This document shows, piece by piece, positions 7,926 through 62,400 of a stretch of 64,000 nt of DNA. The stretch is taken from contig NZ_JAUSVK010000001.1 of the NCBI RefSeq assembly GCF_030814655.1, positions 937,043-1,001,042 of the forward strand, read 5' to 3'. The notes beneath the pieces are model-generated. The model made no database searches. It was not told the DNA's origin and saw only the letters and a list, made by a program, of their open reading frames with translations. The position numbers and the translations under genes were made by a program. Positions within the stretch are counted from its first letter, which is position 1; every line of letters starts with the position of its first letter. The stretch comes from Labrys monachus (GTDB lineage Bacteria; Pseudomonadota; Alphaproteobacteria; Rhizobiales; Labraceae).

Positions 7926-7939
7926 CTGAGGTAGATCAA
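7926..7939. promoter_or_regulatory. Weak FixK/FNR-type box upstream of the USP gene
   Basis: CTGAGGTAGATCAA: the right half-site ATCAA is perfect, the left half has two mismatches to TTGAT. The centre is 81.5 bp before the USP start at 8014, within the range of the stronger boxes in the window. I see no clear -10-like hexamer at the usual offset, so this is a weak call. Confidence 0.35.
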
Positions 7940-8013
7940 GGCGCCGACCCGTCGTCCGGCGGAAAATGAGAGATGGCCGGCGATGGATTCCGGCATATCT
8001 CATGGAGACCGTC

Positions 8014-8907
8014 ATGACCGAGGCCCCCGCTTCCGCCCAGTCCCAGCCCGGCGACACCCTGCGCTACCCCACCCGCTACCAGGACGTGATGGTGCATCTG
8101 GACGGCGGCGAGGAGGATGAAAACCGTATCGCCCATGCCGAGGCGATCGCCGGCCTTTCGGGCGGTCATCTCACCGGCCTCTACACCAACATGCTTTCCG
8201 ACATCACCCTCTATGCCGAAGAGGCCGGTGCGGCGGCGATCACGGCATATACCGAGACTTTGCTGGAGGAGGGACGCGCCGTGCAGCACAGGCTCGAAAC
8301 CCGCTTCCAGCGTCTCGGGGTTTCGAACGAGGTCCGCAAGGTCGAGGAGGTATCCGGCGTGCTGCCGCGCCTGGTCGGCACCGAGGCGCGCTGGGCCGAT
8401 CTCTTCGTCGCGTCATGCCCCTACCGGGCCGACGGCCACGACGACTGGGACAGGATGATCGAAGCGGTGATGTTCGAGGGCGGGCACGGCCTCTACCTCG
8501 TGCCGCGCGGGGTGAAGCCGCGAGCGCGCATCGAGACGGCGATGATCGGCTGGGTCGATACGCGCGAGGCGGCCCGCGCCGTCGCCGAGGCGCTGCCGCT
8601 GCTCAGGCTGGCGACGAAGACCGAGCTCGTCGGCGTGCAGGAGCCGGCCAAGGGACGGCTTGGCGGCGGGGAAGCGATGGCGGACATCGCCACCCATCTG
8701 GCGCGGCACGGCATCGAGACCACGGTCACCGTGGTGCCGCCCGGCGAGAACGTCGCCGCGGCGCTGCTCGACCGGGCGCATCATATCTCGGCGGACCTGA
8801 TCGTGGCCGGCGCCTACGGCCATTCGCGCTTCCGGGAATGGATCCTCGGCGGCGCGACGCAGGATCTCATCCGCACCAGCGACCTGCCGCTTCTCATGGC
8901 CCATTGA
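8014..8907 (+). CDS. Universal stress protein, tandem-domain (USP 1)
   Basis: 297 residues from the ATG at 8014, chosen because GGAG lies six bases before it; in-frame ATGs at 8002 and 7966 lack this. Two UspA-like domains are present. The C-terminal one carries the nucleotide-binding signature AGAYGHSRFREWILGG (G-x2-G-x9-G) and the typical ending DLPLLMAH. Such proteins are cytoplasmic, often bind ATP and support survival under oxygen limitation or growth arrest; the exact role is not known. It is the first of five USPs in the window and has a weak FixK-type box upstream. It is convergent with phosphoketolase, with a terminator between. Confidence 0.9.
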   Translation: MTEAPASAQSQPGDTLRYPTRYQDVMVHLDGGEEDENRIAHAEAIAGLSGGHLTGLYTNMLSDITLYAEEAGAAAITAYTETLLEEGRAVQHRLETRFQRLGVSNEVRKVEEVSGVLPRLVGTEARWADLFVASCPYRADGHDDWDRMIEAVMFEGGHGLYLVPRGVKPRARIETAMIGWVDTREAARAVAEALPLLRLATKTELVGVQEPAKGRLGGGEAMADIATHLARHGIETTVTVVPPGENVAAALLDRAHHISADLIVAGAYGHSRFREWILGGATQDLIRTSDLPLLMAH

Positions 8908-9007
8908 GGCCGCGCCGCACGCTCGGGGCCGGCCGACGGCCCTGGGCGTGCCTCCCTCCTGGCAGGCTGCCGGCGACACCGGGCCATTCCCGGGCCTCAA
9001 CGCATGA

Positions 9008-9036
9008 AAGGCCCGGCAGCGTCGCTGCCGGGCCTT
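9008..9036. terminator. Bidirectional terminator hairpin
   Basis: A perfect 13-bp inverted repeat (AAGGCCCGGCAGC, 9008-9020, pairing with 9024-9036 across a 3-base loop) lies between the convergent ends of the USP gene and phosphoketolase. The symmetric A/T ends suit termination from both sides. Confidence 0.8.
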
Positions 9037-9068
9037 GATCGTTCGCTGGAATTGATCGACCGCAGGCT

Positions 9069-11468
9069 TCAGGCGGTGCCCGGGGTCCTCGACGGCCAGA
9101 CCCAGTTCTTGATCTCCGGCATGTCGTCGCCGTAGCGGCGGACATAGTCCTCATGCTCGATCAGCTTGTGCTGGAACGCCTGCTTGACATGGGCTGCGGC
9201 CGGCAGGAGGCCGGGCACTCGGTCGATCGCGGCGATAGCGAGGTGGAACCGGTCGAGGCCGTTGATCACGGCCATGTCGAAGGGCGTGGTCGTCGTGCCT
9301 TCCTCCATGAAGCCGTGGACGTGGAAATTGTCGTGGTTGGCGCGCCGGTAGGTCAGGCGGTGGATGAGATGCGGATAGCCGTGATAGGCGAAGATCACCG
9401 GCTTGTCGGTGGTGAAGAGCCCGTCGAACTCGCGGGCGTCGAGGCCGTGCGGGTGTTGGCGGGGATCCTGCAGCGCCATGAGGTCGACGACGTTGATGAC
9501 GCGGATCTTCAGCGCCGGGCAATGGGTGCGAAGCAGGTCGACGGCCGCCAGCGTCTCGAGCGTCGGGACGTCGCCGGCGCAGGCCATGACGAGGTCGGGC
9601 TCGCTGCCCTCGTCGTTCGAGGCGAAGTCCCACAGGCCGATCCCGGCCCGGCAATGCTTGATCGCGCTGTCCATGTCCAGCCATTGCGGCGAGGGCTGCT
9701 TGCCCGCCACGATGACGTTGATGCGGTCATAGGTGCGCAGGCAGTGGTCGGCGACCCATAGAAGCGTATTGGCGTCGGGCGGCAGGTAGATGCGGACGAT
9801 GTCGGCCTTCTTGTTGGCGACGACGTCGATGAAGCCCGGATCCTGATGGCTGAAGCCGTTGTGGTCCTGCCGCCAGACATGGGAGGTCAGCAGGTAGTTG
9901 AGGGAGGCGATCGGCTGGCGCCAGCCGATCTTGCGCGAGACCTTCAACCATTTGGCGTGCTGGTTGAACATCGAATCGACGATGTGGATGAAGGCCTCGT
10001 AGCAGGAGAAGAAGCCGTGCCGGCCGGTCAGCAGATAGCCCTCGAGCCAGCCCTGGCACAGATGCTCGCTCAGCACCTCCATGACGCGCCCGTCGGGCGA
10101 GAGGTGCACGTCCTCGGGGATGGTCGGTTCCATCCAGACGCGGTCGGTGACCTCGAAGACGGCGTCGAGGCGGTTCGAGGCGGTCTCGTCCGGCCCCATG
10201 ATGCGGAAATTGCGGGCTTCGGCGTTGAGCCGCATGACGTCGCGCAGATAAGTGCCGAGCACGCGGGTGGCTTCGCCCTCATGGGCGCCGGGGGATGTCA
10301 CCGCCACCGCGAAGTCGCGGAAATCCGGACAGTGCAGATAGCGCCGCACGCTGCCGCCATTGGCGTTGGGATTGGCCCCCATGCGGCGCGGGCCCTGCGG
10401 CGCGAGCGCCTGCAGGTCGGGCACGAGCCGGCCCTTGTCGTCGAACAGGTCTTCCGCGCGATAGCCCTTCATCCACGCTTCCAGCTGCGCCAGATGGGCG
10501 GGATTGGTGGCGATGCCGCTGAGCGGCACCTGGTGGGACCGCCAGAAGCCCTCGGTCTTGAGGCCGTCGACCTCCTTGGGCCCGGTCCAGCCCTTGGGAC
10601 TGCGCAGGATGATCATCGGCCAGAGCGGGCGCTCGGCGCCGGCGCCGGAACGCGCCCTGTCCTGGATGGCGCGGATGCGGGCGAAGGTCTCGTCGAAGGT
10701 CCGGGCCATGGCCTCGTGCATCGGGCCGGGCTGGTCGCCCTCCACGAAGAAGACCTCGTGGCCATAGCCTTCGAACAGCTTGCGGATTTCCTCGTCGCCG
10801 AGACGACCGAGGATCGTCGGCCCGGCGATCTTGTAGCCGTTGAGATGGAGGATGGGCAGCACGGCCCCGTCATGGACGGGATTGAGGAATTTGTTCGAGT
10901 GCCAGGAGGCGGCGAGAGGACCGGTCTCGGCTTCGCCGTCGCCGACGACGCAGGCGACGATGAGGTCCGGATTGTCGAAGGCGGCGCCATAGGCATGGAC
11001 GAGGGCGTAGCCGAGTTCGCCGCCCTCATGGATCGAGCCGGGCGTGTCGGGAGAGGCATGGCTCGGAATGCCGCCGGGGAAGGAGAACTGCCGGAACAGG
11101 CGGCGCAGGCCGTCTTCGTCCTGGGTGATCTCCGGATAGAACTCGCTGTAGCTGCCTTCCAGATAGGTGTTGGCGACCACGGCGGGGCCGCCATGTCCGG
11201 GACCGCAGACGAAGATGATGTTGAGATCGTCCCGGCGGATGATGCGGTTGAGATGCGCGTAGAGGAAATTGAGGCCGGGGGTGGTGCCCCAGTGGCCGAG
11301 GAGGCGCGGCTTGACGTCGCTGACTTTCAGGGATTCCCGCAGGAGCGGGTTGTCCAGGAGGTAGATCTGGCCGACGGAAAGGTAGTTGGCGGCCCGCCAG
11401 TAGCGGTCGATCTGGGCGAGTTCGTCCTGGCCCAGCGTCGGCGGGCCCTGCGTCGGATCGTTGGTCAT
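9069..11468 (-). CDS. xfp: Phosphoketolase (xylulose-5-phosphate/fructose-6-phosphate)
   Basis: 799 residues, the usual length. The thiamine diphosphate motif [20 protein letters not shown] and the N-terminal [18 protein letters not shown] are diagnostic of Xfp. It splits xylulose 5-phosphate and/or fructose 6-phosphate with phosphate to give acetyl phosphate plus glyceraldehyde 3-phosphate or erythrose 4-phosphate, a route to ATP through acetate kinase without pyruvate decarboxylation. No acetate kinase lies in this window. The gene begins only 21 bp after the fixK stop on the same strand and has no box of its own, so it is probably co-transcribed with the regulator. That links fermentative carbon flow directly to oxygen sensing. 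Confidence 0.95.
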
Positions 11469-11489
11469 GATCTCTTCTCCGGTAGCCGT

Positions 11490-12185
11490 TCAGATATTCA
11501 TGCCGTGGAGGCGCTGGCGGTTGCGCAGGACGATGTGGCGAGCGCCGGAGAGGCCGAGGACGCCTTCCTGCTGGAGCTGGGAGAGGACGCGTGAGACGGT
11601 CTCGAGGGTGAGGCCGAGATAATCGCCGATGTCTCGGCGGCACATGGGCAGGTCGAGCATGCCGGCGACGGTGAGGCGGCGGTCCATTTCGAGGAGGAAG
11701 GCGGCGACGCGTTCCTTGGCGGTCTTGCGGCCGAGGAGGAGCATGTGGTCCTCGGCGTGGCGCAGGTCGCGGGCGGTGGTGGCCCAGAGGGCATTGGCGA
11801 TGCGCACATCGCCCTGGGCGGCGGCCTCGAGGCTCCTGCGGCGGACGAGGCGGACGGTGGTGTCGACGATGGCGTCGGCGGTGAGGCGGTGGGCGGGGCC
11901 GGATTCGAGGCCGAAGACATCGCCGGGCAGATGGAAGGCGCCGATCTGGCGGCGGCCGTCGTCGAGGAGCTTGCAGGTGCGGACGGCGCCGCTCACCACT
12001 TCGTAGACATAGTCGGCGGGCTCGTCGTCACCATAGATCTCCTCGTCCTTGCCGTAGGAGGCGAGGGTGCCGAGCAGGCCGGGATGGGCGGTGGAGAAGA
12101 AGCGGCTGTCGGCTTTGGGAGGCAGGGCCGGCAGGAGGCCGGTGCGCATGTCGGGGGCGGGAGCGATCATGGTGCGGGAAAGCAT
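11490..12185 (-). CDS. fixK: FixK-type CRP/FNR family transcription regulator
   Basis: 231 residues from the ATG at 12185, preceded by AAGGAG at nine-base spacing; in-frame ATGs at 12194 and 12218 are less well placed. An N-terminal cyclic-nucleotide-like beta-roll is followed by a dimer helix and a C-terminal HTH (RRDIGDYLGLTLETVSRVLS). The E-x2-SR recognition helix is the FNR/FixK type, which reads TTGA half-sites. The N-terminal cysteine cluster of FNR is absent, so it should not sense oxygen through an Fe-S cluster. Cys182, next to the HTH, lies where I recall the redox-sensitive Cys183 of Bradyrhizobium FixK2; that alignment is from memory. It is the natural reader of the boxes found across the window. 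It is the likely FixJ target and lies directly upstream of xfp. Confidence 0.85.
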   Translation of the reverse strand: MLSRTMIAPAPDMRTGLLPALPPKADSRFFSTAHPGLLGTLASYGKDEEIYGDDEPADYVYEVVSGAVRTCKLLDDGRRQIGAFHLPGDVFGLESGPAHRLTADAIVDTTVRLVRRRSLEAAAQGDVRIANALWATTARDLRHAEDHMLLLGRKTAKERVAAFLLEMDRRLTVAGMLDLPMCRRDIGDYLGLTLETVSRVLSQLQQEGVLGLSGARHIVLRNRQRLHGMNI

Positions 12186-12259
12186 CGGAGCCATCTCCTT
12201 GGCGGTGCGGATGGCCAAGTGGTAGAGGCGATCGCCCCGCCGCGAAATTTCGGTCGATG

Positions 12260-12282
12260 CCTTAAGGGCTCCCCCCTAAGGG
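12260..12282. promoter_or_regulatory. Repeated CCTTAAGG / CCCTAAGGG motif in the fixK promoter region
   Basis: Two near-identical palindromic elements, CCTTAAGG (12260-12267) and CCCTAAGGG (12274-12282), are spaced about one and a half helical turns apart, 75-97 bp before the fixK start. There is no FixK/FNR box in this gap. Their place suggests an operator for the regulator of fixK, for which FixJ is the obvious candidate. This is inference from position and symmetry. Confidence 0.4.
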
Positions 12283-12332
12283 ATTTCCCGGAGGCCGGCG
12301 GGGCGCACGCCCGTCCGCGCTTCCGCGCTCGG

Positions 12333-12369
12333 CCGCCCAAGCTCAACCGCCCAAGCTCAACCGCCCAAG
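12333..12369. repeat. 14-bp tandem repeat across the fixJ stop codon
   Basis: The unit CCGCCCAAGCTCAA occurs at 12333-12346 and 12347-12360, followed by a partial third copy at 12361-12369. The fixJ stop (12357-12359) lies within the second copy. It looks like a small replication-slippage duplication at the 3' end of the gene. Confidence 0.75.
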
Positions 12370-12974
12370 GCGCCGCTGCGCATGGCGAGCCTGGCGAGAT
12401 CGGACAGGTCGGCAGCCTGCATCTTGGCCATCACACTGGCGCGATAGACCTCCACGGCGCGCGGGCTGATGTCGCACTCCCTCGCGATCGCCGTGTTGGC
12501 TCGCCCGGAGACCAGAGCCTGCATCACCTGCCGTTCCCGCGGGCTGAGCGAGGCGAGGCGCGCATCGAGACCTTCGGCGGCGGAGGGGAGATCCCGCGCA
12601 TCCGCGCCCCGGTCGAGCGCCGTCCTGAGCGCCCTGAGCAGCCTCTCGTCCTCGAATGGTTTTTCGAGGACGTCGATGGCGCCGAGCTTCATGGCTTCGA
12701 CCGCGAGCGGCACGTCGCCATGGCCGGTCATGACGATTGCCGGCAGCTTCACGCCGGCGGCGTTCAGGCGCTTGAGAAGCTCGATGCCGTCGATTTGCGG
12801 CATGCGGATGTCGGTGACCAGGCAGCCGAAGCCGAGATGCGGAGCGGCCGACAGGAATTGTGCCGCCGCTTCGAACGAGCGCACGGCGAAACCGCTGATG
12901 CCGAGCAGGAATTCGAGGGAATCCCGCATCGCCGCATCATCGTCGATGATGAAGACCTGGGCGTCAGACGGCAT
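12357..12974 (-). CDS. fixJ: FixJ-type two-component response regulator
   Basis: 205 residues from the ATG at 12974; the open frame extends further upstream but only into the fixL coding region. Receiver domain: acidic pocket IIDDD near residues 9-13, phosphoacceptor Asp55 in VTDIRMPQ and the conserved Lys in LEKPF. The C-terminal LuxR-type HTH is intact (LSPRERQVMQALVSGRANTA, then SPRAVEVYRASVMAKMQ). The start overlaps the fixL stop by 11 bp, so the pair is translationally coupled. By analogy with rhizobial FixJ, it should be phosphorylated by FixL at low oxygen and activate transcription, most simply of fixK, which lies 171 bp beyond its stop codon on the same strand. Confidence 0.9.
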   Translation of the reverse strand: MPSDAQVFIIDDDAAMRDSLEFLLGISGFAVRSFEAAAQFLSAAPHLGFGCLVTDIRMPQIDGIELLKRLNAAGVKLPAIVMTGHGDVPLAVEAMKLGAIDVLEKPFEDERLLRALRTALDRGADARDLPSAAEGLDARLASLSPRERQVMQALVSGRANTAIARECDISPRAVEVYRASVMAKMQAADLSDLARLAMRSGALGG

Positions 12975-14640
12975 CGAAACGGTCTCCCGAAGATTTGCGG
13001 CCGGCGGCGGAGGGCAGCGAAAACAGGAAGGTGGCGCCGCCCAGATCGTTCGTCTCGGCCCACATCCTTCCGCCATGCGCCTCGACGATGGTGCGGCTGA
13101 CGGACAGGTCGACACCGATGCCGGTGCCCTTGGTCGTGAAGAAGGGTTGGAACAGGCGCGACCTCGTCTCCTCGCTGAAGCCGCGGCCGGTGTCGGCAAC
13201 CGACAGGAGCGTCATGCCCTCGTCACCCGGGGCGCTCGAAACGGTCAGCTCCCGGCGGCTGCAGTCCTGCATCGCCTCGAGGGCGTTCCGAAAGAGGATG
13301 ACGAGCACCTGCTGGATCTGGAGGCGGTCGACGACCACGAGGTCGCACTCTGCCGGCAGATCGATACGCAGGGTGACCCCCTGCTCGCGCGCACCGATGA
13401 GGCCGAGCGCCCTCGCATCCTCCACCAGCCTCGACAAGCTCTCGGTCCGCTTTTTCGTCTCGCCTCGCGCGACGAAGCCGCGCAGGTGGCGGATGATCCG
13501 CCCGGCGCGGATGGCCTGCTCGGCCGCCTTGTCGAGCGCAACCTCGATCTTGACGGCGTGGGCGAGCTCGTGCGGTTCCAGCAGGCGCCGCGATCCGGTG
13601 ATGTAGTTGCTGATCGCGGCGAGCGGCTGGTTGAGTTCATGGGCGAGGGCGGATGCCATATCGCCCATGGCGCTCAGGCGGGACACATGAATGAGTTCGG
13701 CCTGCAGATCCGCCAGCCGTGCCTCGGTCTGCCGCTGCTCGGTGAGATCGTGCACGAAGCCGGTGAAGTAGCGCCGGCCGCCCGACTGCATTTCGCCTAC
13801 CGACAGGTACATCGGAAAGGTCGAGCCGTCCTTGCGCTCTCCCATGACGATGCGGCCGATGCCGACGATGTGGCGCTCGCCGGTCTCCCGGTAGCGGGCC
13901 ATGTAGCTATCGTGGCGGCTGCGGTCGGGCAGCGGTATCACCATGCTGACGTTGCGCCCGATGGCCGCCGTCTCGTCATGGCCGAACAGGTGCTCGGCGG
14001 CGCGGCTGAAAAGCTGGATCGTCCCTTCGTCGTCGATGACGATCATCCCGTCCGGGATGGTGTCCAGGATCGATCGCAGATGCTCCTCGCGGATGAGAAG
14101 GGTCCGTTCGAGGCGCTTCTCTTCGTCGATGTCGAGCAGGATGCCGGCGAGGCGCGCGTTTCCATCGGCAAGCCCTTGCGATGGCGCGCCGCGCAGGCGC
14201 AGCCAACGGCCGCCGCCGCCGGCCAATCGGCAGCGGACATCCAAGGGTGTTCCGATCCGCGACGCGCTTGCCGCAGCCTCGCCGGCTGCGGCGGCATCCT
14301 CAGGATCCAGCAGGGACAGGAAGTCGTCGAAATCGTCGGCGGGCCGTCCGGCAGGGACCCCCACCAGGGCCCGCGCGGCCGGGGACAGCACCAGCTTTCG
14401 GGTTGCCAGATCGAGGTCCCAGGAGCCGATCCCCGCGCTTTCGAGGCCGATCAGGACCGCATTGTCGTCGACGATGCGCGCCGAATGCGGCCCGAAGCCT
14501 TCGCTGTCCGGCTCGTTCGGGTCGATGCGGCCGAACGGGGCCGGCCGCATCTGATTATCCTCCGCGGAGGCGTTCGTCGCAGACGTCTGGGAACGCGGAG
14601 CGACAGCAGATGTGCCCCGACGGTCGCCATCATGCGACAT
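12964..14640 (-). CDS. fixL: FixL-type haem-PAS oxygen-sensing histidine kinase (soluble)
   Basis: 558 residues from the ATG at 14640 (GAGGA upstream). Order: a first PAS-like domain (about residues 60-170), a haem PAS domain (about 175-295), then HisKA and HATPase domains. The haem PAS keeps the proximal ligand His243 in RHDSYMARY and Arg263 in VGIGRIVMG, exactly 20 residues apart as in FixL. The kinase has His334 in ALAHELNQPLAAISNYI and G-boxes near VADTGRGF and GTGIGVDLS. There is no membrane segment, so it is a cytoplasmic sensor of the Bradyrhizobium FixL layout. Oxygen on the haem should inhibit autophosphorylation. The start overlaps the end of the BON gene by 11 bp. Confidence 0.9.
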   Translation of the reverse strand: MSHDGDRRGTSAVAPRSQTSATNASAEDNQMRPAPFGRIDPNEPDSEGFGPHSARIVDDNAVLIGLESAGIGSWDLDLATRKLVLSPAARALVGVPAGRPADDFDDFLSLLDPEDAAAAGEAAASASRIGTPLDVRCRLAGGGGRWLRLRGAPSQGLADGNARLAGILLDIDEEKRLERTLLIREEHLRSILDTIPDGMIVIDDEGTIQLFSRAAEHLFGHDETAAIGRNVSMVIPLPDRSRHDSYMARYRETGERHIVGIGRIVMGERKDGSTFPMYLSVGEMQSGGRRYFTGFVHDLTEQRQTEARLADLQAELIHVSRLSAMGDMASALAHELNQPLAAISNYITGSRRLLEPHELAHAVKIEVALDKAAEQAIRAGRIIRHLRGFVARGETKKRTESLSRLVEDARALGLIGAREQGVTLRIDLPAECDLVVVDRLQIQQVLVILFRNALEAMQDCSRRELTVSSAPGDEGMTLLSVADTGRGFSEETRSRLFQPFFTTKGTGIGVDLSVSRTIVEAHGGRMWAETNDLGGATFLFSLPSAAGRKSSGDRFDAV

Positions 14641-15277
14641 GCAGATTGTCCTCGACGCTGGACACGCCGGGGGCCGACCACGCCGCGCGCTCGGCGACCG
14701 AGCGTTCGTGCCAGGCCTTGATCTTTCCTTCGAGCACGACCTTGCCGCCGTCCACATTGACGCGGATGGCATCGGCCTCGAACTCGGCGTCACGCTTGAG
14801 CGCAGCCATGATCTTCGACTTCACATCGGTGGCCTGCACATGCGGCTTGACCATGACGTGGTTGATGACACCGATGACGCCACTGAGCTTACGCACGGCC
14901 GTTTCGGCCGCCTCGCGCTGGAACTGCCAGGTGACCGAGCCGGTGAGGGTGACCCAGCCTTTCTCCACCTTCACCTCGACGACCCCTTCCGGAACCATCG
15001 CGTCCCAGGCGATCACCGCGACGGCGCGCTGGGCGATCTGGTCGTCGGCGGTCTTGCGGTCGCTCGGATAGCGCACCTCGATCTCGACCGCGATGGCGCG
15101 CACGCCCTTGATGCGGCGGACGACGGTTTCGGCGGCGATCTTCTCCGCATAGCTTCCGACATGGCCGGTGAGCGTCGCGATGCCATTCTCGACGCCGACG
15201 CCGATATTGGCGGCGTCGAGGCGGGGGTCGAAGTCGAGCGCATCGATGATCGACTGACGGAGGAGCTTGTCATCCAT
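14630..15277 (-). CDS. BON-domain protein with three BON repeats
   Basis: 215 residues from the ATG at 15277 (AAAGGAC at good spacing). Three consecutive BON domains of ~65-70 residues each are visible, marked by NGIATLTGHVGSYAEK, KGWVTLTGSVTWQFQRE and GGKVVLEGKIKAWHERS. BON domains are thought to bind membranes or phospholipids and are often induced by stress. No signal peptide is seen, so this copy is probably cytoplasmic. It lies 56 bp after hsp20 and overlaps fixL by 11 bp, giving an hsp20-BON-fixL-fixJ series that should be driven by the box in front of hsp20. Confidence 0.88.
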   Translation of the reverse strand: MDDKLLRQSIIDALDFDPRLDAANIGVGVENGIATLTGHVGSYAEKIAAETVVRRIKGVRAIAVEIEVRYPSDRKTADDQIAQRAVAVIAWDAMVPEGVVEVKVEKGWVTLTGSVTWQFQREAAETAVRKLSGVIGVINHVMVKPHVQATDVKSKIMAALKRDAEFEADAIRVNVDGGKVVLEGKIKAWHERSVAERAAWSAPGVSSVEDNLHVA

Positions 15278-15333
15278 GGTGATGTCCTTTCCTGTATGAG
15301 CCTCTTGCGCGGGCGGCGGCGACGCCTCCCTGG

Positions 15334-15831
15334 TCACGCGGCGGCCTTGACTTCGATCTTCTTGGCGACGCTCGGCGCGGTCTTGGGGACGGTCACCGTC
15401 AGCACGCCGTTCGAGACGCGTGCGTCGATGCGCGAGGAATCGACGCCGGCCGGCAGTTCCATCCGGCGTGAGAACGAGCCGTGTCGCCGCTCGATCAGCC
15501 GGTAGTCCTTCTTCGTCTCGTCCTTCTCGGCCTTCTTCTCGCCGCGGATGGTCAGGATGTTGTCGGTCAGCGTGACTTCGACGTCCTTTTCCTGGAGTCC
15601 CGGCAGTTCGGCGGTGACTTCGATGGCCTGATCGGTTTCCGAGACGTCCATGCGCGGGACGAGATCCGATGTGGCGGAGGACCCGGTCCAGCCGAGGGAA
15701 CTCAGCGCGGGAAATCCCCGGCCGAAATCATCGAAAATCCTGTCGATTTCCTGCTGCAGGGACCGGAAGATATTCGCCTGCGACAGCTCGGACCCCGTGC
15801 GGTTGAGGGGAGCTAAGGGTTTCAGACTCAT
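15334..15831 (-). CDS. Small heat-shock protein, Hsp20/alpha-crystallin family
   Basis: 165 residues from the ATG at 15831, chosen because GGAGG lies five bases upstream; the ATG at 15843 lacks this. After a variable N-terminal arm comes the alpha-crystallin domain: PRMDVSETDQAIEVTAELPG, then the NILTIRGEKK strand and a C-terminal NGVLTVTVPK, followed by an Ala/Lys-rich tail. It is an ATP-independent holdase that keeps unfolding proteins soluble. It is the first gene of the series reading into fixL-fixJ and has a FixK-type box 79.5 bp upstream. Hsp20 genes are classic members of oxygen-limitation regulons. Confidence 0.93.
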   Translation of the reverse strand: MSLKPLAPLNRTGSELSQANIFRSLQQEIDRIFDDFGRGFPALSSLGWTGSSATSDLVPRMDVSETDQAIEVTAELPGLQEKDVEVTLTDNILTIRGEKKAEKDETKKDYRLIERRHGSFSRRMELPAGVDSSRIDARVSNGVLTVTVPKTAPSVAKKIEVKAAA

Positions 15832-15903
15832 TTCTGCCTCCATGTTCTGCCGTTTCCGACATTGGGAACGGTCCACGAAGACCATCCGGCGGCTGCGAGC
15901 GCG

Positions 15904-15917
15904 TTGATCTTGGTCAA
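15904..15917. promoter_or_regulatory. FixK/FNR-type box for hsp20
   Basis: TTGATCTTGGTCAA differs from the symmetrical TTGAT-N4-ATCAA at one position. The centre is 79.5 bp before the hsp20 start. I do not see a convincing -10-like hexamer at the offset found for most other boxes. Confidence 0.6.
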
Positions 15918-15973
15918 ATCCGTACCGTTTTTGGCGGTTTTCGGCGGTTGCGGGACCGTGCCGCGGCCTTCGG

Positions 15974-15987
15974 TTGAGATGGATCAA
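15974..15987. promoter_or_regulatory. FixK/FNR-type box for the kinase-like/P-loop gene
   Basis: TTGAGATGGATCAA has one mismatch to TTGAT-N4-ATCAA and is centred 77.5 bp before the plus-strand gene at 16058. With the box at 15904 it makes a divergent pair serving both strands. Confidence 0.6.
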
Positions 15988-16057
15988 TACGCCGCCCGCG
16001 ATCCCCCTGTTTTCTGGGGCGGCGCGCGCAGGCGCTTTCGCTGAACGGAGGAGATCG

Positions 16058-38779: not shown

Positions 38780-38780
38780 G

Positions 38781-47234: not shown

Positions 47235-47237
47235 GCC

Positions 47238-53796: not shown

Positions 53797-56148
53797 TCAG
53801 TCGATGCGCAAATGCGAGAGGACCGCGATCTTGACGGTATCCATGCCCAGCGCGAACAGCGCCGTTCCCGCCAGCAGGAGGCCGATCATCGCCGCCGGCA
53901 GCGCGTCCATCAGAATGCCCCCGGCGGCGAGGACGACGGCGAGAACCACATTGGCCGTGGAGGCGACGATCATCAGCGGAACGGGGCGCGAATGCCAGAA
54001 GCGGCCCCGTTCGCGCAGGATGAAGATGTTGGCCTGGCCTGCCAGGACCAGCGTCAGGAAGGTCAGGGTCTGCATCCGTCCGGGAGCGAAGCGGAACACA
54101 TACCAGCCCAGGGCGAGCATGCCGACGCAATAGAGAAGCTTGAACAGGCCGAGCGGCACGGCCGCCAGCGTCAGGTTGCCGACGCGCCAGGCGTTGGGAT
54201 AGGCCGAGGGCGTGGCGTGATCCGCCGTGCGCGACATGGTGACGAAATCGCCGGCCAGCATCGAGAGGGCGAGGAGAAGCGGCGTCAGGACGGCATGTCC
54301 GGTCACGATCAGGCCCATCCCCATCATCAGCAGCGTCACGCATTTGTTCACCAGGATCGTCAGCGTGTAGGTGAGGACGCGCTGGAAGGCCGATCTTCCT
54401 TCCCCGATACAGGTGACGATGCCGCCGAGCCCAGGCTCGGTCAGCACGACGCCGGCGGCGGCCTTCGCCACGTCGGTCGCGGTGGAGACCGCAATGCCCA
54501 TTTGGGCCTGGCGCAGGGCCGGCGCGTCGTTGGCGCCGTCTCCACACATGCCCACCGCGTGCCCCGCCTGCTGGAAAGCCTTCACGAGCCGGAACTTCTG
54601 CTCGGGAAATACGCCGGCATAGACGGCGAAGTCGGATGGGCCGACCCCGTCCGGGATGCGGCCCGGCGGGCATACCGGCCCGTCCAGTCCGATGGTCCGG
54701 GCGATGGCCGCGGCGGTCGCCGCCGAATCGCCGGTGACCATGACCGGATGGACGCCGAGGCCCTTCAGCCGGGCCAGGAGTTCGGCCGAATCCGGCCGCG
54801 GCGGGTCGCTGAGCGCCACCAGCCCGATCATCACGAGCGCGTCGGGAGGGCCGACGGCCACGGCGAGGACGCGGTGGCCGGTTCCGGTGAGCCGGTCCAG
54901 CTCGGCCGCCGCCCCGGGTGGCATCGGCGCGACGGCGGCGATCACGGCAGGCGCGCCCTTGACCACCCGCAATGTCCGCCCATGATCGAGCACCATCGCC
55001 TCCGCCATCTTGACCGCGGGGTCGAAGGGAACGAAACGCTGGGCGGCCAGCGTTTCGCCTTTGGCCGTGGCACGCGCCGCATGCATCGTGCGGATGGCCG
55101 AATCGATGGGATCCTGACCATCGGCGGAACTGGCCAAGGCGGCGAAGCGGAGCACGTCGCCTTCGTCATAGCCGGGCGCCACCGGCCGTATGGCGCTGAC
55201 CTTGAGCGCATTGGCGGTGAGGGTGCCGGTCTTGTCGGCGCAGAGAACGTCGATTCCCGCCGCTTCCTGCAAGGCGGAGAGGCGGGTGAGCAGCACGCCC
55301 TTGGCGGCAAGGGTCCGGGCGCCCAGGGCTGCCGCAAGCGTGAAGGTTGCCGGCAATGCCACCGGCACCACCGACAGAAGCGCCGTCAGGACGAGCGGTA
55401 TGATCTCGGCCGGCCCCATGCCGATGTGGAGGGCGTAGGCGACCATTCCCGCGACGATGACGAGATTGACGATCGTCAGGTTGCGCACGACGCCCAGAAC
55501 CGCCTTCTGTTCGGCGCTCTCCACGCTGGCGGTCCGCACGAGCTCCGCCGTCCGCCCGAAAAAGGTGCGTGCCCCGGTCGCGGAGACCGTTCCGGTCGCC
55601 TCGCCCCGGCGCACGAGGCCGCCGGAATAGGCAAGCTGACCGACCCCGATTTCCGCCGGCACCGATTCTCCGGTCAGCATCGACTGGTCGATCAGCAGGG
55701 AGCCGGTGGCGAGGGTGATATCGGCCGGAACGATGCCGCCGAGCGAGATCTGCACCACATCGCCCGGCACGAGAGCGGCGGAGGGAAGGAGTATCCAGCC
55801 GCCGTCGCGCCGGACCCGCACCGTCAGCGCAAGGTGCTTCTTCAGCAAAGCCAGCGCGGCGGTGGCGCGCCCCTCCTGGAAGACGCCGAGGCCGACATTG
55901 AGCAGGAGCAGCGCCGCGATCATCAGGGCTTCCAGGCGCTCGCCGGCGAGGAATTGCAGAACGACGGCGGCCTCCAGCATCCAGGGAACCGGCGCCCAGA
56001 AATGGCGGAGTACGCGCCGGAGCGGCGAGGTCTCGTCCTCGCTCACGGCATTCGATCCGAACGCGATGCGCTGCGTCGCGGCTTCCTGGGTCGTCAGGCC
56101 GGACGGAACGGCGACAGCGAGCGGCACGCCGTCGGTCTGGATGGTCAT
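53797..56148 (-). CDS. P-type ATPase, proton-pump-like (P3A)
   Basis: 783 residues from the ATG at 56148 (GGAGA seven bases upstream). Actuator domain with SMLTGESVPAEIG, helix M4 VPVALPATFTLAAALGARTL, phosphorylation site CADKTGTLTAN, hinge GDGANDAPALRQAQMGIAV and C-terminal helices with FILRERGRFW. The M4 PVALP sequence and the lack of heavy-metal motifs place it with plasma-membrane H+-ATPases (type IIIA). It would export protons at the cost of ATP, useful for keeping pH or membrane potential when respiration stops. A 68-aa gene lies 76 bp upstream on the same strand, behind a FixK-type box. Confidence 0.85.
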   Translation of the reverse strand: MTIQTDGVPLAVAVPSGLTTQEAATQRIAFGSNAVSEDETSPLRRVLRHFWAPVPWMLEAAVVLQFLAGERLEALMIAALLLLNVGLGVFQEGRATAALALLKKHLALTVRVRRDGGWILLPSAALVPGDVVQISLGGIVPADITLATGSLLIDQSMLTGESVPAEIGVGQLAYSGGLVRRGEATGTVSATGARTFFGRTAELVRTASVESAEQKAVLGVVRNLTIVNLVIVAGMVAYALHIGMGPAEIIPLVLTALLSVVPVALPATFTLAAALGARTLAAKGVLLTRLSALQEAAGIDVLCADKTGTLTANALKVSAIRPVAPGYDEGDVLRFAALASSADGQDPIDSAIRTMHAARATAKGETLAAQRFVPFDPAVKMAEAMVLDHGRTLRVVKGAPAVIAAVAPMPPGAAAELDRLTGTGHRVLAVAVGPPDALVMIGLVALSDPPRPDSAELLARLKGLGVHPVMVTGDSAATAAAIARTIGLDGPVCPPGRIPDGVGPSDFAVYAGVFPEQKFRLVKAFQQAGHAVGMCGDGANDAPALRQAQMGIAVSTATDVAKAAAGVVLTEPGLGGIVTCIGEGRSAFQRVLTYTLTILVNKCVTLLMMGMGLIVTGHAVLTPLLLALSMLAGDFVTMSRTADHATPSAYPNAWRVGNLTLAAVPLGLFKLLYCVGMLALGWYVFRFAPGRMQTLTFLTLVLAGQANIFILRERGRFWHSRPVPLMIVASTANVVLAVVLAAGGILMDALPAAMIGLLLAGTALFALGMDTVKIAVLSHLRID

Positions 56149-56224
56149 TGCGATGTCTCCGCCAGGCGGCGCCGCTGGTACGGCGCGGGGCAACCGGATC
56201 GCCACCCCATGGCTCGCCGGCTCC

Positions 56225-56509: not shown

Positions 56510-56523
56510 TTGATCCACCTCAA
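56510..56523. promoter_or_regulatory. FixK/FNR-type box for the 68-aa gene and P-type ATPase
   Basis: TTGATCCACCTCAA has one mismatch to TTGAT-N4-ATCAA, centred 85.5 bp before the ATG at 56431. CTACCT (minus strand, from 56488) begins 28.5 bp downstream of the centre. Confidence 0.7.
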
Positions 56524-56546
56524 CTGCGCGCGATCGGCCGCCGCGG

Positions 56547-56560
56547 TTGATCCGGATCAA
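56547..56560. promoter_or_regulatory. Perfect FixK/FNR box for the cytochrome c gene
   Basis: TTGATCCGGATCAA is a perfect palindrome, centred 92.5 bp before the ATG at 56646. CTTATT at 56583-56588 begins 29.5 bp downstream of its centre. It forms a divergent pair with the box at 56510, the centres 37 bp apart. Confidence 0.8.
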
Positions 56561-56645
56561 TACGCGCCCGCGCGAATGCTGGCTTATTTCGCGGAGGGGA
56601 TGCGCGCTGCCCGCCGCCCGGATTTGCCTCGGAAAGGATCGGACC

Positions 56646-57131
56646 ATGAAACCCGTGATCTTCGCCGCCGCGATCGCATGCATGACGGCCGTGCCCGCGC
56701 TCGGGGGCGACGTGCCGTTCGCAGCACCGCCGCCTTCCCGGCCCGGCCAGCTCGACCAGATGATGATGCCTGGTCTCGGGGAGTTCATGTCGATGATCCA
56801 GACCCGCCACATCAAGCTTTGGTACGCCGGAAAGTTCGGCAATTGGGATCTTGCCGACTATCAGCTCGACCGCATCGCCGAGAACCTCAACAAGGCCGCC
56901 CTTCTCTATACGGGCATACCCGTCACCTATGTGACCGCGGTCCAGGCGCCCTTGACCGAGATGCGCGACGCCGCACAGGCAAAGAACGCGGCCCAATTCA
57001 TCCGCGGCTATGCCGACCTGACCGCGGCATGCAACAGCTGTCACCAGGCCGGCAATGTCCGTTTCATCCAGATCCGGACCCCAATCGCCTCCCCCTTCGG
57101 CGACGAGGACTATCACCCGCCGGCGGATTGA
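56646..57131 (+). CDS. Class II cytochrome c (c'/c556-like), periplasmic
   Basis: 161 residues from the ATG at 56646 (AAAGGA upstream). A Sec signal peptide (MKPVIFAAAIACMTAVPALG) precedes a ~140-residue mature domain predicted to be mostly helical. A single haem-c site CNSCH (Cys129, Cys132, His133) lies close to the C terminus, the place typical of class II cytochromes such as c' and c556. Cytochromes c' bind NO and c556 types carry electrons; which applies cannot be told. The perfect box and clear -10 make strong low-oxygen control likely. Confidence 0.82.
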   Translation: MKPVIFAAAIACMTAVPALGGDVPFAAPPPSRPGQLDQMMMPGLGEFMSMIQTRHIKLWYAGKFGNWDLADYQLDRIAENLNKAALLYTGIPVTYVTAVQAPLTEMRDAAQAKNAAQFIRGYADLTAACNSCHQAGNVRFIQIRTPIASPFGDEDYHPPAD

Positions 57132-57235: not shown

Positions 57236-58948
<1,713 letters not shown>

Positions 58949-59728
58949 TCAATGCGACATCAGCACCGGCAGAGACAGCCCTTCGATGAGCTCCTGGCTT
59001 GCGCCTCCGAGCAATCCCTCCAGCATGGGGGAATGCCCATAGGCGCCGGCCACGATGAGGTCCGCCTCCGCCGTGTCCAGCGATGCGTAGAGGGCCTCGA
59101 TCGGCGATATCTGTCCGGTATCCTCCCAGCTCGAGGCGCGCGCCGGCACGCCGTGGCGGTGCAGGTGATCCACGACGATCCGCTGCTCCTCGGCGACGGA
59201 GCCCCTGCCGGACGAGAAGGTGAAGACCGTCACGACCTCCGCCTGCTGCAGCAGGGGCATCGCGTCATGCATGGCCCGTGTCGCCTCGCGGCTGGCGTTC
59301 CAGGCCAGCACGATGTTCTTGCCGACAGGCTCGGGCTTCCAGCCATAGGGCAGCAGCAGGACCGGGACACCGGCGCCGAGGAGAATGTCCTTCGGAACCG
59401 CATCGATGACGAGGCGGCGGCTTTCGAATTCCGGCCGGGGTGCGATGATGAGATCGACGCAATGCGCATAGCGATGCGGGCCATGCGCCCGGGCGCCGGT
59501 CTCGGTATGGAACTCGGCCGGAATCCTGCTTCGCTCGGCCGCCTCCCTGAAGAGATCCCCGATCGCGGCGGTCCTGTCCCGCCAGTCCTTGTCGAAGGCG
59601 TCCTCCGAACTCGCATCGATGCCGATCAGCCGGGCGCCATGCTGTTCGGCCATGGAGACGGCGAAGGCGAGGCGATTCTCGCCGTCCGGCGTGGGATCGA
59701 GGTAAACCAGGATGTCCTTGAAGGTCAT
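58949..59728 (-). CDS. Universal stress protein, tandem-domain (USP 3)
   Basis: 259 residues from the ATG at 59728 (GGAG seven bases upstream); the open frame to 60517 lies antisense to another gene. Two UspA-like domains. The C-terminal motif AGAYGHSPMLEGLLGGASQE keeps the G-x2-G-x9-G ATP-binding signature, and the protein ends SLPVLMSH. A symmetric TTGAC-type box and a CATCCT hexamer lie upstream at the usual spacing. Confidence 0.92.
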   Translation of the reverse strand: MTFKDILVYLDPTPDGENRLAFAVSMAEQHGARLIGIDASSEDAFDKDWRDRTAAIGDLFREAAERSRIPAEFHTETGARAHGPHRYAHCVDLIIAPRPEFESRRLVIDAVPKDILLGAGVPVLLLPYGWKPEPVGKNIVLAWNASREATRAMHDAMPLLQQAEVVTVFTFSSGRGSVAEEQRIVVDHLHRHGVPARASSWEDTGQISPIEALYASLDTAEADLIVAGAYGHSPMLEGLLGGASQELIEGLSLPVLMSH

Positions 59729-59789: not shown

Positions 59790-59803
59790 TTGACGCAGGT
59801 CAA
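59790..59803. promoter_or_regulatory. FixK/FNR-type box for USP 3
   Basis: TTGACGCAGGTCAA is the same TTGAC-N4-GTCAA variant as at 33677, centred 68.5 bp before the start at 59728. CATCCT (minus strand, from 59768) begins 28.5 bp downstream of the centre. Confidence 0.65.
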
Positions 59804-59864
59804 TCGTGCGGCCGCGATTCCGGCGTGCGCTCCGTCCGCGGATGGGTTGCCGCGACCCGAAAGC

Positions 59865-59878
59865 TTGACCTGGCTCAA
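59865..59878. promoter_or_regulatory. FixK/FNR-type box for the 151-aa gene
   Basis: TTGACCTGGCTCAA fits TTG[AC]-N6-[TG]CAA. TAGACT at 59900-59905 begins 28.5 bp downstream of the centre, close to the TAGACA after the perfect box at 27842. The centre is 124.5 bp before the start at 59996. Confidence 0.6.
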
Positions 59879-60532: not shown

Positions 60533-61366
60533 TCAACTGCTCAGCAGCACGCAGATCGGACTTTTCTTGAGCATGCGATAGGTGTCGCCGCCGAAGGTCC
60601 ATTCGCGCAGGCGCGTATGGCCCTGGCCTCCCATGACGATCAGCCCCGCACCGACGCCCCTGGCGAGCGCCAGCAATTGCGGCGTCGGCCCGTCCCCGTC
60701 GTCGAGCAGGGCCCTGCCTTCCGCGCGCACGCCGTGCCGGGAGAGATAGGTCGCGACGTCGCTCGTCCTGAATCTGGCGGCTTCGAGATCCCCCGCCGGG
60801 GCGATCTCCACGACGTCCACCCGGCTCGATTTGCGCAGGATGGGGGTGGCGTCCTGCACGGCCCTGCGCGCCTCCCGGCTGTCCTTCCAGGCCACGATCG
60901 CCCTCGAGCCGAGGGGACCGATCCCCACGGCCGGCGGGACCACCAGCAGTGGCCTGCCGATCTCGAGCAGCATGTCGCTGGGATTGGCGAGACTGTAGGG
61001 GGCGACCTCGTTCCTGATCTGGCCGACGACGACGAGATCCGCCGCGCGGGCTTCGCGGGAGAGGAAGCGGGCCGGATGGTCCATGGAGCAGCGCCACTCG
61101 ATCGGACGGCCGAATGCGCGGGCAGCCTGGCGGAAGAGGGCCTCCGAATAGCCCAGATCGGCTTCGGCCGCCTGCTGCGGCGGGGTCAGGACGGGGCCGG
61201 CGACCGGGCCGAAACGAGACGGGGCCATGACGGGAAACATCGGCACGCTCGCCGATGCCCCGATGACGCTCGCCTCGAACGCGGCTGCGATCTCGCAGGC
61301 CAGATTGACACGGGCGGCGGCATGGCTGCCATTATCGACGTAGACCATGATCGCGGCGTAACGCAT
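60533..61366 (-). CDS. Universal stress protein, tandem-domain (USP 4)
   Basis: 277 residues from the ATG at 61366 (GGAGG seven bases upstream). Two UspA-like domains, with the ATP-binding signature GGQGHTRLREWTFGGDTYRM near the end. It has a box (61431) with TAGGCT at the usual place. It is divergent from USP 5, 176 bp apart. Confidence 0.92.
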   Translation of the reverse strand: MRYAAIMVYVDNGSHAAARVNLACEIAAAFEASVIGASASVPMFPVMAPSRFGPVAGPVLTPPQQAAEADLGYSEALFRQAARAFGRPIEWRCSMDHPARFLSREARAADLVVVGQIRNEVAPYSLANPSDMLLEIGRPLLVVPPAVGIGPLGSRAIVAWKDSREARRAVQDATPILRKSSRVDVVEIAPAGDLEAARFRTSDVATYLSRHGVRAEGRALLDDGDGPTPQLLALARGVGAGLIVMGGQGHTRLREWTFGGDTYRMLKKSPICVLLSS

Positions 61367-61430
61367 CGTGAGCCTCCGGGGCGGCGACAGTCCAGAGTAT
61401 CCAGCCTAGTCGCGCATGCCCGGCCGCATG

Positions 61431-61444
61431 TTGACATCGATCAA
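61431..61444. promoter_or_regulatory. FixK/FNR-type box for USP 4
   Basis: TTGACATCGATCAA has one mismatch to TTGAT-N4-ATCAA, centred 71.5 bp before the start at 61366. TAGGCT (minus strand, from 61408) begins 29.5 bp downstream of the centre, so it faces USP 4. Confidence 0.7.
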
Positions 61445-61474
61445 GGGACGAAAGCCATAGGCACGGGGGGCCGG

Positions 61475-61488
61475 TTGATCCAACGCAA
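61475..61488. promoter_or_regulatory. FixK-type box for USP 5
   Basis: TTGATCCAACGCAA fits TTG[AC]-N6-[TG]CAA, centred 61.5 bp before the start at 61543. It is the fourth box of the TTGATC-N4-GCAA type, after 27539, 39969 and 43421. Confidence 0.5.
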
Positions 61489-61542
61489 TGCGAGAGGCGG
61501 CGGCGCGTTCCAGGGTGCCTCACCTTGTAAGGAGATCGCCCC

Positions 61543-62400
61543 ATGCCCCTTCGTTGCATACTCGTTCCCATCGGACCGGGAATCGATGCGCGCCATCGCC
61601 TGGATGCGGCGCTCCGCATCTGCCGCTACACCCATGCCCATATCGATGCGCTCTACATAGAGCCCGATCCGGAAAGCACCCTGCGCAACATGCCGGACGT
61701 CGTGCTGGCGAGCGGCATCACCGCCGAGAGCATCCAGCAGGATGCCCGCGAGGCGGCCGGCAAGGCACAGGCCCAGTTCGACGAATGGTGCGTCCGCAAC
61801 GACGTCCCCAGCGGTTCCGACCATCGCCTCGACCGCACTTTCGCATCCTGGCGCCGGAAGGTCGGCGATCTCGAGGCGACCGTTGCGCTGTCGGGACGGG
61901 TCAGCGACCTCATCGTTATCGACAAGCCGGCCTTGGCCACGCCCTTCCACGCCGTCGCCTTCGATGCCGCGGTGTTCTCCTCCGGCCGTCCGGTTCTCGT
62001 GATCCCCCGCGAGGGCTATGTCGATCCTCTCGGACATGTCGCGATCGCATGGAACGGCAGCCTGGAAGGTGCCCGTGCCGTCGGCCAGTCGATCGCGCTC
62101 CTGCACGAGGCAGAACGTGTCTCGGTGATCACCGTGCCGTCCGAACGGTCCGGCGAGGCGGCCGGCGCGGATCTCTGCCAATATCTGCAATGGCATGGCA
62201 TCGTCACCGGTCCGCCGATCACCGCGTCCGCGGGCTCCGGGTCGGCCGGCGAGGCCATCCTGGCGACATGCGGGCAATTGCACGCCACGATGCTCGTCAT
62301 GGGGGCGTATACGCACAGCCGCATGCGCGAACTGTTCCTCGGGGGCGTCACCAAGCATGTCCTTGCCCATGGCACGCTGCCCGTCCTCATGGCGCATTAG
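61543..62400 (+). CDS. Universal stress protein, tandem-domain (USP 5)
   Basis: 285 residues from the ATG at 61543 (AAGGAG upstream). Two UspA-like domains. The C-terminal motif is GAYTHSRMRELFLGGVTKHV, with Thr in place of the second Gly, so nucleotide binding may be altered as in USP 2. It ends GTLPVLMAH. It is divergent from USP 4 and convergent with the formamidase gene, 36 bp away. Confidence 0.92.
   Translation: MPLRCILVPIGPGIDARHRLDAALRICRYTHAHIDALYIEPDPESTLRNMPDVVLASGITAESIQQDAREAAGKAQAQFDEWCVRNDVPSGSDHRLDRTFASWRRKVGDLEATVALSGRVSDLIVIDKPALATPFHAVAFDAAVFSSGRPVLVIPREGYVDPLGHVAIAWNGSLEGARAVGQSIALLHEAERVSVITVPSERSGEAAGADLCQYLQWHGIVTGPPITASAGSGSAGEAILATCGQLHATMLVMGAYTHSRMRELFLGGVTKHVLAHGTLPVLMAH

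Follow-up and report, generated by a model that had tools for sequence, protein, structure and literature searches.

A predicted FixLJ-FixK regulon laid out as a stress and fermentation island in Labrys monachus, with a second fixLJ-fixK locus elsewhere in the genome

Introduction

Do the stress, fermentation, and transport genes that lie together in one part of the Labrys monachus genome form a single oxygen-responsive regulon, and what would its regulatory circuit serve? The stretch of DNA analyzed, hereafter the window, comprises 64,000 nucleotides (937,043–1,001,042 of one 6.92-Mb contig, NZ_JAUSVK010000001.1), and its island part spans window positions 7,966–62,400 (~54 kb). An earlier note, made from the sequence alone, had described this part as an oxygen-limitation survival island with its own FixL-FixJ-FixK circuit and as an alphaproteobacterial counterpart of the mycobacterial DosR regulon. 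The textbook role of FixLJ-FixK is the control of cbb3 oxidase and nitrogen fixation. As judged from genes, recognition boxes, and comparison with relatives, the stretch is very probably one FixLJ-FixK regulon laid out as an island; its circuit has a second copy in the genome, and its closest known counterparts are the FixK2 regulon and the lxa locus rather than the DosR regulon.

FixK/FNR-Type Boxes and Their Placement

A box was defined by the fixed pattern TTG-N8-CAA with at least 8 of 10 matches to TTGAY-N4-RTCAA, and the expectation was taken from 400 kb of control DNA (20 stretches of the same genome) and scaled per 64 kb. At a score of at least 8 the window holds 21 boxes vs 17 in the whole control (2.72 expected; Poisson tail 2e-12), which bears out the earlier estimate of about twenty; at a score of at least 9 the counts are 15 and 3 (0.48 expected; Poisson tail 8e-18), and at a score of 10 they are 7 and 0. 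No 20-kb control stretch has more than three sites scoring at least 8. Genome-wide, the perfect pattern occurs at 46 places, seven of them in the window, which makes up 0.9% of the chromosome, and a reversed control pattern occurs at six.

On the gene map, whose starts were trimmed by hand and corrected from Pfam hits, 18 of the 21 boxes are intergenic, while intergenic DNA amounts to 11.3% of the window; because of the hand trimming, placement was recounted with the longest open reading frames (ORFs), which leaves 11 of 21 boxes intergenic vs 6.3% of the window (P 1e-8). Of 17 transcription units drawn from orientation and spacing between 7.97 and 62.4 kb, 13 have a box at most 300 bp upstream of the leading gene and three more have one at ~350–420 bp, giving 16 of 17; the unit without a box is the universal stress protein (USP) gene USP1. 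The box coverage given earlier is thus amended, also in that the phosphoketolase XFP, FixK, FixJ, and FixL1 are none of them directly preceded by a box and would depend on the one ahead of Hsp20 or on other promoters. The boxes are as follows.

15904..15917, FixK box, 10/10, between Hsp20 and the APH/AAA_33 gene
15974..15987, FixK box, 9/10
23972..23985, FixK box, 9/10
27539..27552, FixK box, 8/10
27790..27855, two FixK boxes, at 27790 and 27842, each 10/10
33677..33774, two FixK boxes, at 33677 (10/10) and 33761 (9/10)
39969..39982, FixK box, 8/10
43358..43434, two FixK boxes, at 43358 (9/10) and 43421 (8/10), upstream of the permease only if its start lies near 43571
49832..49845, FixK box, 9/10
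56510..56560, two FixK boxes, at 56510 (9/10) and 56547 (10/10)
59790..59878, two FixK boxes, at 59790 (10/10) and 59865 (9/10)
61431..61488, two FixK boxes, at 61431 (10/10) and 61475 (8/10), between the divergent USP4 and USP5

The FixL, FixJ, and FixK Proteins of the Window

The regulatory genes form two groups, the first of which includes a complete fixLJ-fixK set.

11490..12218, minus strand, FixK, a FixK2-type CRP/FNR regulator (Pfam), with Cys at the FixK2 C183 position
12219..12356, minus strand, fixK upstream region with CCCTTA-type repeats, a candidate FixJ site (predicted binding)
12357..12974, minus strand, FixJ response regulator, receiver and GerE domains (Pfam)
12964..14793, minus strand, FixL1, with PAS, HisKA, and HATPase domains (Pfam), start probably near 14650
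37235..38779, plus strand, FixL2, PAS kinase with an N-terminal DUF4118 (Pfam)
38766..39404, plus strand, FixJ-like regulator without a detectable helix-turn-helix (HTH) (Pfam)
39364..39849, plus strand, single-receiver response regulator (Pfam)

FixL1 gives its best matches (E 9e-105) over its PAS to FixL chimeras and FixL of solved structures (8js5, 1dp6), and it keeps His, Arg, His, and Arg at the four haem-pocket columns checked, which we take to be FixL His200, Arg206, His214, and Arg220, so that it is predicted to bind haem; in the printed alignments, entries 2cmn and 1y28 carry Ala at the two Arg columns. FixL2 likewise matches FixL structures (best E 3.5e-96) and keeps the proximal His and one distal Arg, the other two of the four residues being lost. 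The earlier description of two haem-PAS kinases therefore stands as far as the FixL type of both is concerned, and is weakened for the haem pocket of FixL2. FixK matches FixK2 (4i2o, a C183S entry) at 6.7e-98 and has Cys where that entry has Ser; it contains a second Cys, neither lies in the N-terminal part, and the N-terminal Cys cluster of the FNR type is absent.

The FixJ-like protein beside FixL2 gives no GerE match and has no detectable DNA-binding domain in Pfam, a departure from the earlier description. In an 8-row FixL tree, FixL2 joins the FixL proteins of a same-genus genome (G004) and of Reyranella (100/99), a placement left open by a 13-row tree. Because G004 pairs this type of kinase with FixJ, a receiver, and FixK, the FixL2 trio may be what remains of a third circuit.

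A Second fixLJ-fixK Locus and a Near-Identical fixK Pair

The window does contain the circuit, as had been claimed, and the genome has two fixLJ-fixK copies in all. The second locus, at 3.398–3.402 Mb, encodes FixL, FixJ, a receiver, FixK, and a USP, beyond which lie an Nramp gene and the gene for cytochrome bd subunit II. DNA identity between the two loci is 74% over FixL-FixJ and 85.6% for the USP (USP1 in the window), and it rises over a single tract.

11486..12301, minus strand, 816-bp tract (fixK plus 83 bp upstream), 99.3% identical to 3,401,084–3,401,899 of the second locus

Within this tract 810 of 816 positions are identical, and the trees join the two FixK copies by near-zero branches, while the FixL and FixJ copies lie far apart. 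Because the fixK pair is 99.3% identical and its neighbors only 74–86%, the simplest reading is a recent gene conversion or replacement of fixK together with its promoter, and the upstream part of the tract contains an element conserved at the same place in three other Labrys genomes (G001–G003). The trees do not settle the age of the duplication: a joint clade of the two copies is not rejected for FixL (approximately unbiased test, p 0.252) or for FixJ (p 0.175), with 8/13 FixL, 9/24 FixJ, and 9/13 FixK rows and with two FixJ rows left out of the 13-row tree set. Each of G001–G003 has one FixK2-type gene at 69–72% and a 37% relative, and G004 has one FixK2-type gene at 48%. A 9/10 box lies ~75 bp upstream of the second-locus USP (genome 3,402,937), while its window paralogue USP1 has none.

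What the circuit controls here may depart from the textbook. A search for ccoN (cbb3 oxidase, TIGR00780) in the Labrys monachus genome (G000), G001, G003, G004, and G008, the last from another family, gave no match in G000 at E 0.001 and none in G004, one match each in G001 and G003, and one over the cut-off in G008; for nifH, the five same-genus genomes, G000 included, gave only weak matches, none over the cut-off. The cbb3 oxidase is a usual target of FixLJ-FixK and not part of the circuit itself. Since neither gene was found, the circuit would serve survival and fermentation, perhaps also cytochrome bd, and it looks redirected from microaerobic respiration to survival.

Gene Content of the Island

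Between 7,966 and 62,400 we recover every gene class that the earlier note had listed: two FixL-type kinases, FixJ, FixK, five USPs, Hsp20, a BON protein, a nitroreductase, and three P-type ATPases, together with the arginine deiminase (ADI) pathway, phosphoketolase, two alcohol dehydrogenases (ADHs), Clp, and FtsH (Pfam). The Pfam scans covered 60 window ORFs, 16 of which are unmatched and mostly lie in a wrong frame or overlap a better gene. They add a HlyD-ABC-ABC2 operon, an ABC pair, ChaB, DUF308, a CYTH-CHAD protein, and a HAD-AAA fusion, and NCBIfam adds a succinyl-CoA:acetate CoA-transferase. Among the P-type ATPases (PATP1–PATP3), one of three exceeds the magnesium-translocating cut-off of NCBIfam and the other two exceed no transporter equivalog. 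The remaining features are listed here.

7966..8907, plus strand, USP1 (Pfam Usp)
9069..11468, minus strand, phosphoketolase XFP (Pfam)
14630..15337, minus strand, BON-domain protein (Pfam), start probably near 15283
15334..15987, minus strand, Hsp20 (Pfam), start probably near 15840
15974..17728, plus strand, APH-like and AAA_33 kinase-like protein (Pfam), start probably near 16058
17722..18354, plus strand, DUF308 membrane protein
18423..19406, plus strand, ADH1, a zinc ADH (TIGR02822, over cut-off)
19428..22043, minus strand, PATP1, magnesium-translocating type IIIB (over cut-off)
22028..22240, minus strand, ChaB (Pfam)
22256..23936, minus strand, ABC-2 permease and ABC ATPase (Pfam)
24044..26590, minus strand, PATP2 (Pfam)
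26637..27515, minus strand, USP2 (Pfam)
27950..33040, plus strand, exporter operon of HlyD, fused ABC, and ABC-2 permease (Pfam)
33192..33683, minus strand, small protein, weak EipA match below the curated cut-off
33808..34899, plus strand, ADH2 (Pfam)
35124..37016, plus strand, FtsH (Pfam)
40340..42049, plus strand, HAD-IIB phosphatase fused to an AAA domain
42079..43090, minus strand, nitroreductase, with a weak SagB-like match that stays below cut-off, plus a small unnamed protein
43061..48203, plus strand, amino-acid permease (domain begins near 43577), arginine deiminase, OTC, and an AA_kinase-family protein taken as carbamate kinase
47920..49827, plus strand, CYTH-CHAD protein (Pfam), true start probably after 48203
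50254..50652, plus strand, 132-aa protein, no match in Pfam or NCBIfam, relatives at 42–48% in loci L059, L071, and L097
50877..53657, plus strand, Clp ATPase (Pfam)
53797..56205, minus strand, PATP3, nearest to the proton-efflux type, just below cut-off
56547..57131, plus strand, CxxCH-motif protein (cytochrome-like by sight), no Pfam match, start probably near 56646
57236..58903, minus strand, succinyl-CoA:acetate CoA-transferase (NF053853, over cut-off)
58949..59728, minus strand, USP3, trimmed from ORF 58949–60517
60533..61366, minus strand, USP4 (Pfam)
61543..62400, plus strand, USP5 (Pfam)

Statements on the whole genome draw on searches by pattern and family and on 738 kb of the own genome in 40 stretches, namely 20 chosen as neighbors or for box or USP sites and the 20 controls, spread by hand. 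Against the latter, tblastn with 48 window proteins gave 17 matches: ABC proteins account for 11 and two-component proteins for three, the remaining three being to FtsH, a P-type ATPase, and Hsp20. Of six USP5-like proteins found in the genome, five are encoded inside the window and one next to the second fixLJ-fixK locus; a genome-wide Pfam Usp search listed seven matches and missed USP3 and USP4, so that such counts are lower bounds. To the left of the island (window 76–7844) lie a DUF2126 protein, an ATP-grasp/Alpha-E protein, and a molybdopterin dehydrogenase (2Fe-2S, FAD, and MoCo subunits), with no FixK box scoring at least 8.

Relatives and Wider Distribution

A search at E 1e-50 recovers XFP from 10 of 40 genomes, the own genome and all four other same-genus genomes included, and the window proteins were mapped on stretches of ten genomes. 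In G001–G003 the shared genes fall into two modules, which lie ~400 kb from each other in G001 and do not share a contig in G002 or G003. Module A holds XFP, FixK, a receiver, FixJ, FixL, APH/AAA_33, and acetate kinase, with USP5 in G001 and G002. Module B, a stress block with ~6–8 boxes scoring at least 9, holds USPs, a 28% PATP3 match, HlyD-ABC, ADH1, and PATP1, to which are added BON in G001 and G002, Hsp20 in G001 only, ChaB in G002 and G003, and USP5 in G003. G004 carries a compact joint version within ~13 kb (USPs, FixK, receiver, FixJ, FixL, ADH1, XFP), and G008 a ~30-kb version with HAD-AAA, P-ATPase, ADH1, FixL, FixK, HlyD-ABC, USPs, and FixJ, its XFP being on another contig. The stretches of G039, G027, G035, G010, and G032 contain little besides XFP, HlyD-ABC, or HAD-AAA.

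Since G004 and G008 have joint versions, the genes are not scattered in all relatives; the earlier view of them as gathered in one place holds for the window and, compactly, for these two genomes, and fails for G001–G003. Arginine deiminase was found in the own genome only, among six genomes searched. With the modules separate in G001–G003 and arginine deiminase found only here among those six, the island in this exact form appears to be a set of modules assembled locally, with the ADI pathway added.

To look further afield, we took the best 80 of at least 585 loci confirmed by ADH1 alignment, 50 of them full length, and left out the 30 shorter than 20 kb. ADH1, ABC ATPase, ADH2, the MoCo/2Fe-2S/FAD subunits, FmdA, ATP-grasp, DUF2126, HTH, and DUF308 were not counted as markers, and repeated copies of one marker were counted more than once. 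At least three other island markers occur in 17 of the 50 full-length loci vs none of the 20 control stretches, and boxes average 3.8 per locus in those 17, compared with 1.1 in the remaining 33 and 0.15 in a control stretch, a rough yardstick only, since controls and loci come from different genomes. The 17 include loci from Rhizobium, Bosea, Ancylobacter, Bradyrhizobium, Reyranella, Sphingobium, Castellaniella, Variovorax, and Rhizobacter and a Labrys locus equal to that of G003; a cyanobacterial locus (L135) qualifies on FixL/FixJ-type matches alone, and such markers can be ordinary two-component genes. In Variovorax paradoxus 110B, an XFP/BON/ADH1/USP cluster lies a few kilobases from ccoNOP-ccoG-like genes (by sight).

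Comparison with Known Systems

In Bradyrhizobium diazoefficiens, FixK2 dependence is listed for phosphoketolase, whose operon includes acetate kinase, and for Hsp20, USP, nitroreductase, and other genes, with boxes at -37 to -287, and FixK2 also drives fixNOQP (PMC9104804); the USP, phosphoketolase, and Hsp20 proteins are microoxia-induced (PMC6515984). Labrys FixK is closest to FixK2 and has the redox Cys, and the Bradyrhizobium phosphoketolase, Hsp20, USP, and nitroreductase likewise have boxes, 48–89 bp upstream. The targets in Bradyrhizobium are spread from bll0330 to beyond blr4655, with one local cluster from bll4634 to blr4655 (efflux adaptor, GroEL, Hsp20, USP, nitroreductase, DnaJ, ppsA; PMC9104804), whereas the predicted Labrys regulon is mostly confined to a single stretch, with neither ccoN nor nifH found in the genome, fixLJ-fixK doubled, and two Cys in FixK, FixK2 being described with one. 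The predicted alphaproteobacterial FixK regulon (Dufour 2010, PMC2908626) includes FixJ, FixL, Hsp20, HlyD, ABC parts, phosphoketolase, and a zinc ADH; unlike the Labrys stretch it is a regulon list and not an island, and ADI, Clp, and FtsH are not among the classes listed in the part of its Table 1 covered here.

The lxa locus of Burkholderia cenocepacia (BCAM0275–BCAM0323) comprises ~50 adjacent low-oxygen genes, with six USPs, alpha-crystallin, and BON (PMC6127331), and has been linked to anoxic persistence (PMC6127331, PMC9104464). The Labrys island has several USPs with Hsp20 and BON as well, a resemblance in gene classes, its low-oxygen role being predicted; the regulators discussed for lxa, BCAM0049 and the FixLJ homologues BCAL2210/2211 lie outside the lxa locus, whereas the Labrys fixLJ-fixK genes are inside the island.

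The mycobacterial DosR regulon combines haem kinases with Hsp20, USPs, a nitroreductase, and a P-type ATPase, and DosS/DosT are GAF-type haem kinases acting with DosR. The Labrys kinases carry PAS, match FixL, and have no GAF domain listed, and the regulator differs, so that the proposed DosR counterpart gives way to an analogy only. The DosR regulon has 10 USPs among 48 genes plus alpha-crystallin, and one paper covers it and the lxa locus alike (PMC6127331).

The gene set itself is not new: it matches the Bradyrhizobium FixK2 regulon and the predicted FixK regulon and resembles the lxa locus, and since all three are published, the kind is already known. What is new here is the second fixLJ-fixK locus near a cytochrome bd gene, the homogenized fixK pair, and the failure to find ccoN or nifH, and the arrangement as a whole, with its joined modules and doubled circuit, is partly surprising. 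In the open-license literature searched we found no paper combining Labrys and FixK, none joining a duplicated FixLJ-FixK with a lack of cbb3, and none covering five of six island gene terms together; six that mention both fixK and gene conversion are, to judge by their titles, on animals.

Proposed Mechanism and Alternative Explanations

In the model that we propose, a fall in oxygen would strip the haem in the FixL1 PAS of its ligand, whereupon FixL1 would phosphorylate FixJ, and phosphorylated FixJ would activate fixK through the conserved upstream element. FixK would then act at the TTGAY-N4-RTCAA boxes ahead of 13 (or, with boxes to ~420 bp, 16) of the 17 units and switch on chaperones and proteases (Hsp20, Clp, FtsH) with USPs, functions in membrane and ion homeostasis (P-type ATPases, ABC exporters, BON), and enzymes expected to yield ATP or redox balance (phosphoketolase, arginine deiminase, succinyl-CoA:acetate CoA-transferase, ADHs). 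Hsp20 likely leads an operon Hsp20-BON-FixL-FixJ-FixK-XFP, as orientation suggests, and the box ahead of it would provide positive feedback. The second locus, near the cytochrome bd gene, would feed the same regulon, because its fixK is nearly identical and probably kept so by gene conversion.

Several points weigh against this model. The counts of well-placed boxes hinge on hand-trimmed starts, and with untrimmed ORFs 10 of the 21 boxes fall inside an ORF; the HAD-AAA gene, the gene at 50254 with Clp, and PATP3 have boxes only ~350–420 bp upstream of their estimated starts, and USP1 has none. Acetate kinase, which turns acetyl-phosphate into ATP, lies beside or within a few kilobases of XFP in all five other genomes searched (G001–G004, G008), and yet the own gene is at 5.81 Mb, separated from XFP by 4.9 Mb of contig (or, should the contig be circular, by ~2.1 Mb in the other direction), with no box scoring at least 8 in the 20-kb stretch around it. 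Among the full-length ADH1 loci, 33 of 50 have fewer than three markers, and L104 has six markers and no box scoring at least 9. B. cenocepacia strain H111 manages to survive anoxia although it has no lxa locus (PMC9104464), and such islands are therefore not the sole way. Finally, the boxes could be used by other CRP/FNR proteins, FixK binding and induction being predicted from sequence.

Of the alternatives, the one that survives best, though we consider it unlikely, is a general stress island answering to several signals (stationary phase, heat, redox), with oxygen only one of them. USP, Hsp20, Clp, and FtsH are general stress proteins, and FixL2 beside a regulator without an HTH suggests other inputs; the strong enrichment of FixK boxes, in a scan aimed at these and not at other promoter motifs, speaks against this reading, as does the presence of FixL/FixJ/FixK in or beside similar clusters in G004, G008, and Reyranella. 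Slightly less probable still is that the boxes serve another CRP/FNR-family regulator of the FNR/ANR/DNR type, with FixK minor: the FNR, FixK, and DNR regulons have been handled together and have very similar recognition sites (PMC2908626), and a first look in the own genome gave 17 candidates, two of which passed E 1e-20; on the other side, the only strong FixK-family matches are the two FixK2-type copies, one of them inside the box-rich stretch, and the 37% relative of G001–G003 is missing from the own genome at E 1e-20. A chance neighborhood of unrelated stress genes in a plastic region, for which one could cite the separate modules of G001–G003 and the lack of the full set in most ADH1 loci, is highly improbable given box and marker enrichment over own-genome controls (21 boxes vs 2.7 expected) and recurrence in distant Pseudomonadota.

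A single FixLJ-FixK regulon thus remains our preferred reading, and we add to it, tentatively, a bolder version that we would not yet back over its simpler form. Here FixLJ-FixK, cut loose from cbb3 and nitrogen fixation, would run an island for anoxic survival; two FixLJ pairs, now diverged and perhaps set to different oxygen thresholds, would be forced to share one output because gene conversion keeps the fixK genes identical, and a third FixL circuit would survive as a kinase with a non-DNA-binding regulator. The island would offer an alphaproteobacterial example of a FixK stress regulon of which a large part could be deleted or transferred in a single piece, and a natural test case for the role of FixLJ-FixK without cbb3 oxidase or nitrogenase; with doubled sensors and a homogenized regulator, the coupling of duplicated two-component circuits becomes directly testable.

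Boxes and Exporter Copies Elsewhere in the Genome

Five perfect FixK boxes lie 50 kb to the right of the window (genome 1,051,070–1,058,115); genes nearby encode a phasin, an NAD(P)HX repair enzyme, and what looks by sight like a phosphoribosyltransferase. The exact 14-mer TTGATCGAAATCAA (window 27842, genome 964,884) has seven occurrences in the genome, more than other box variants, and may be a repeat element or a favored site. Two more copies of the HlyD-ABC-ABC2 operon were seen, at 133–138 kb, where a 10/10 box adjoins HlyD, and at 3.771–3.776 Mb, where the operon is followed by a USP with a 10/10 box ~90 bp upstream.

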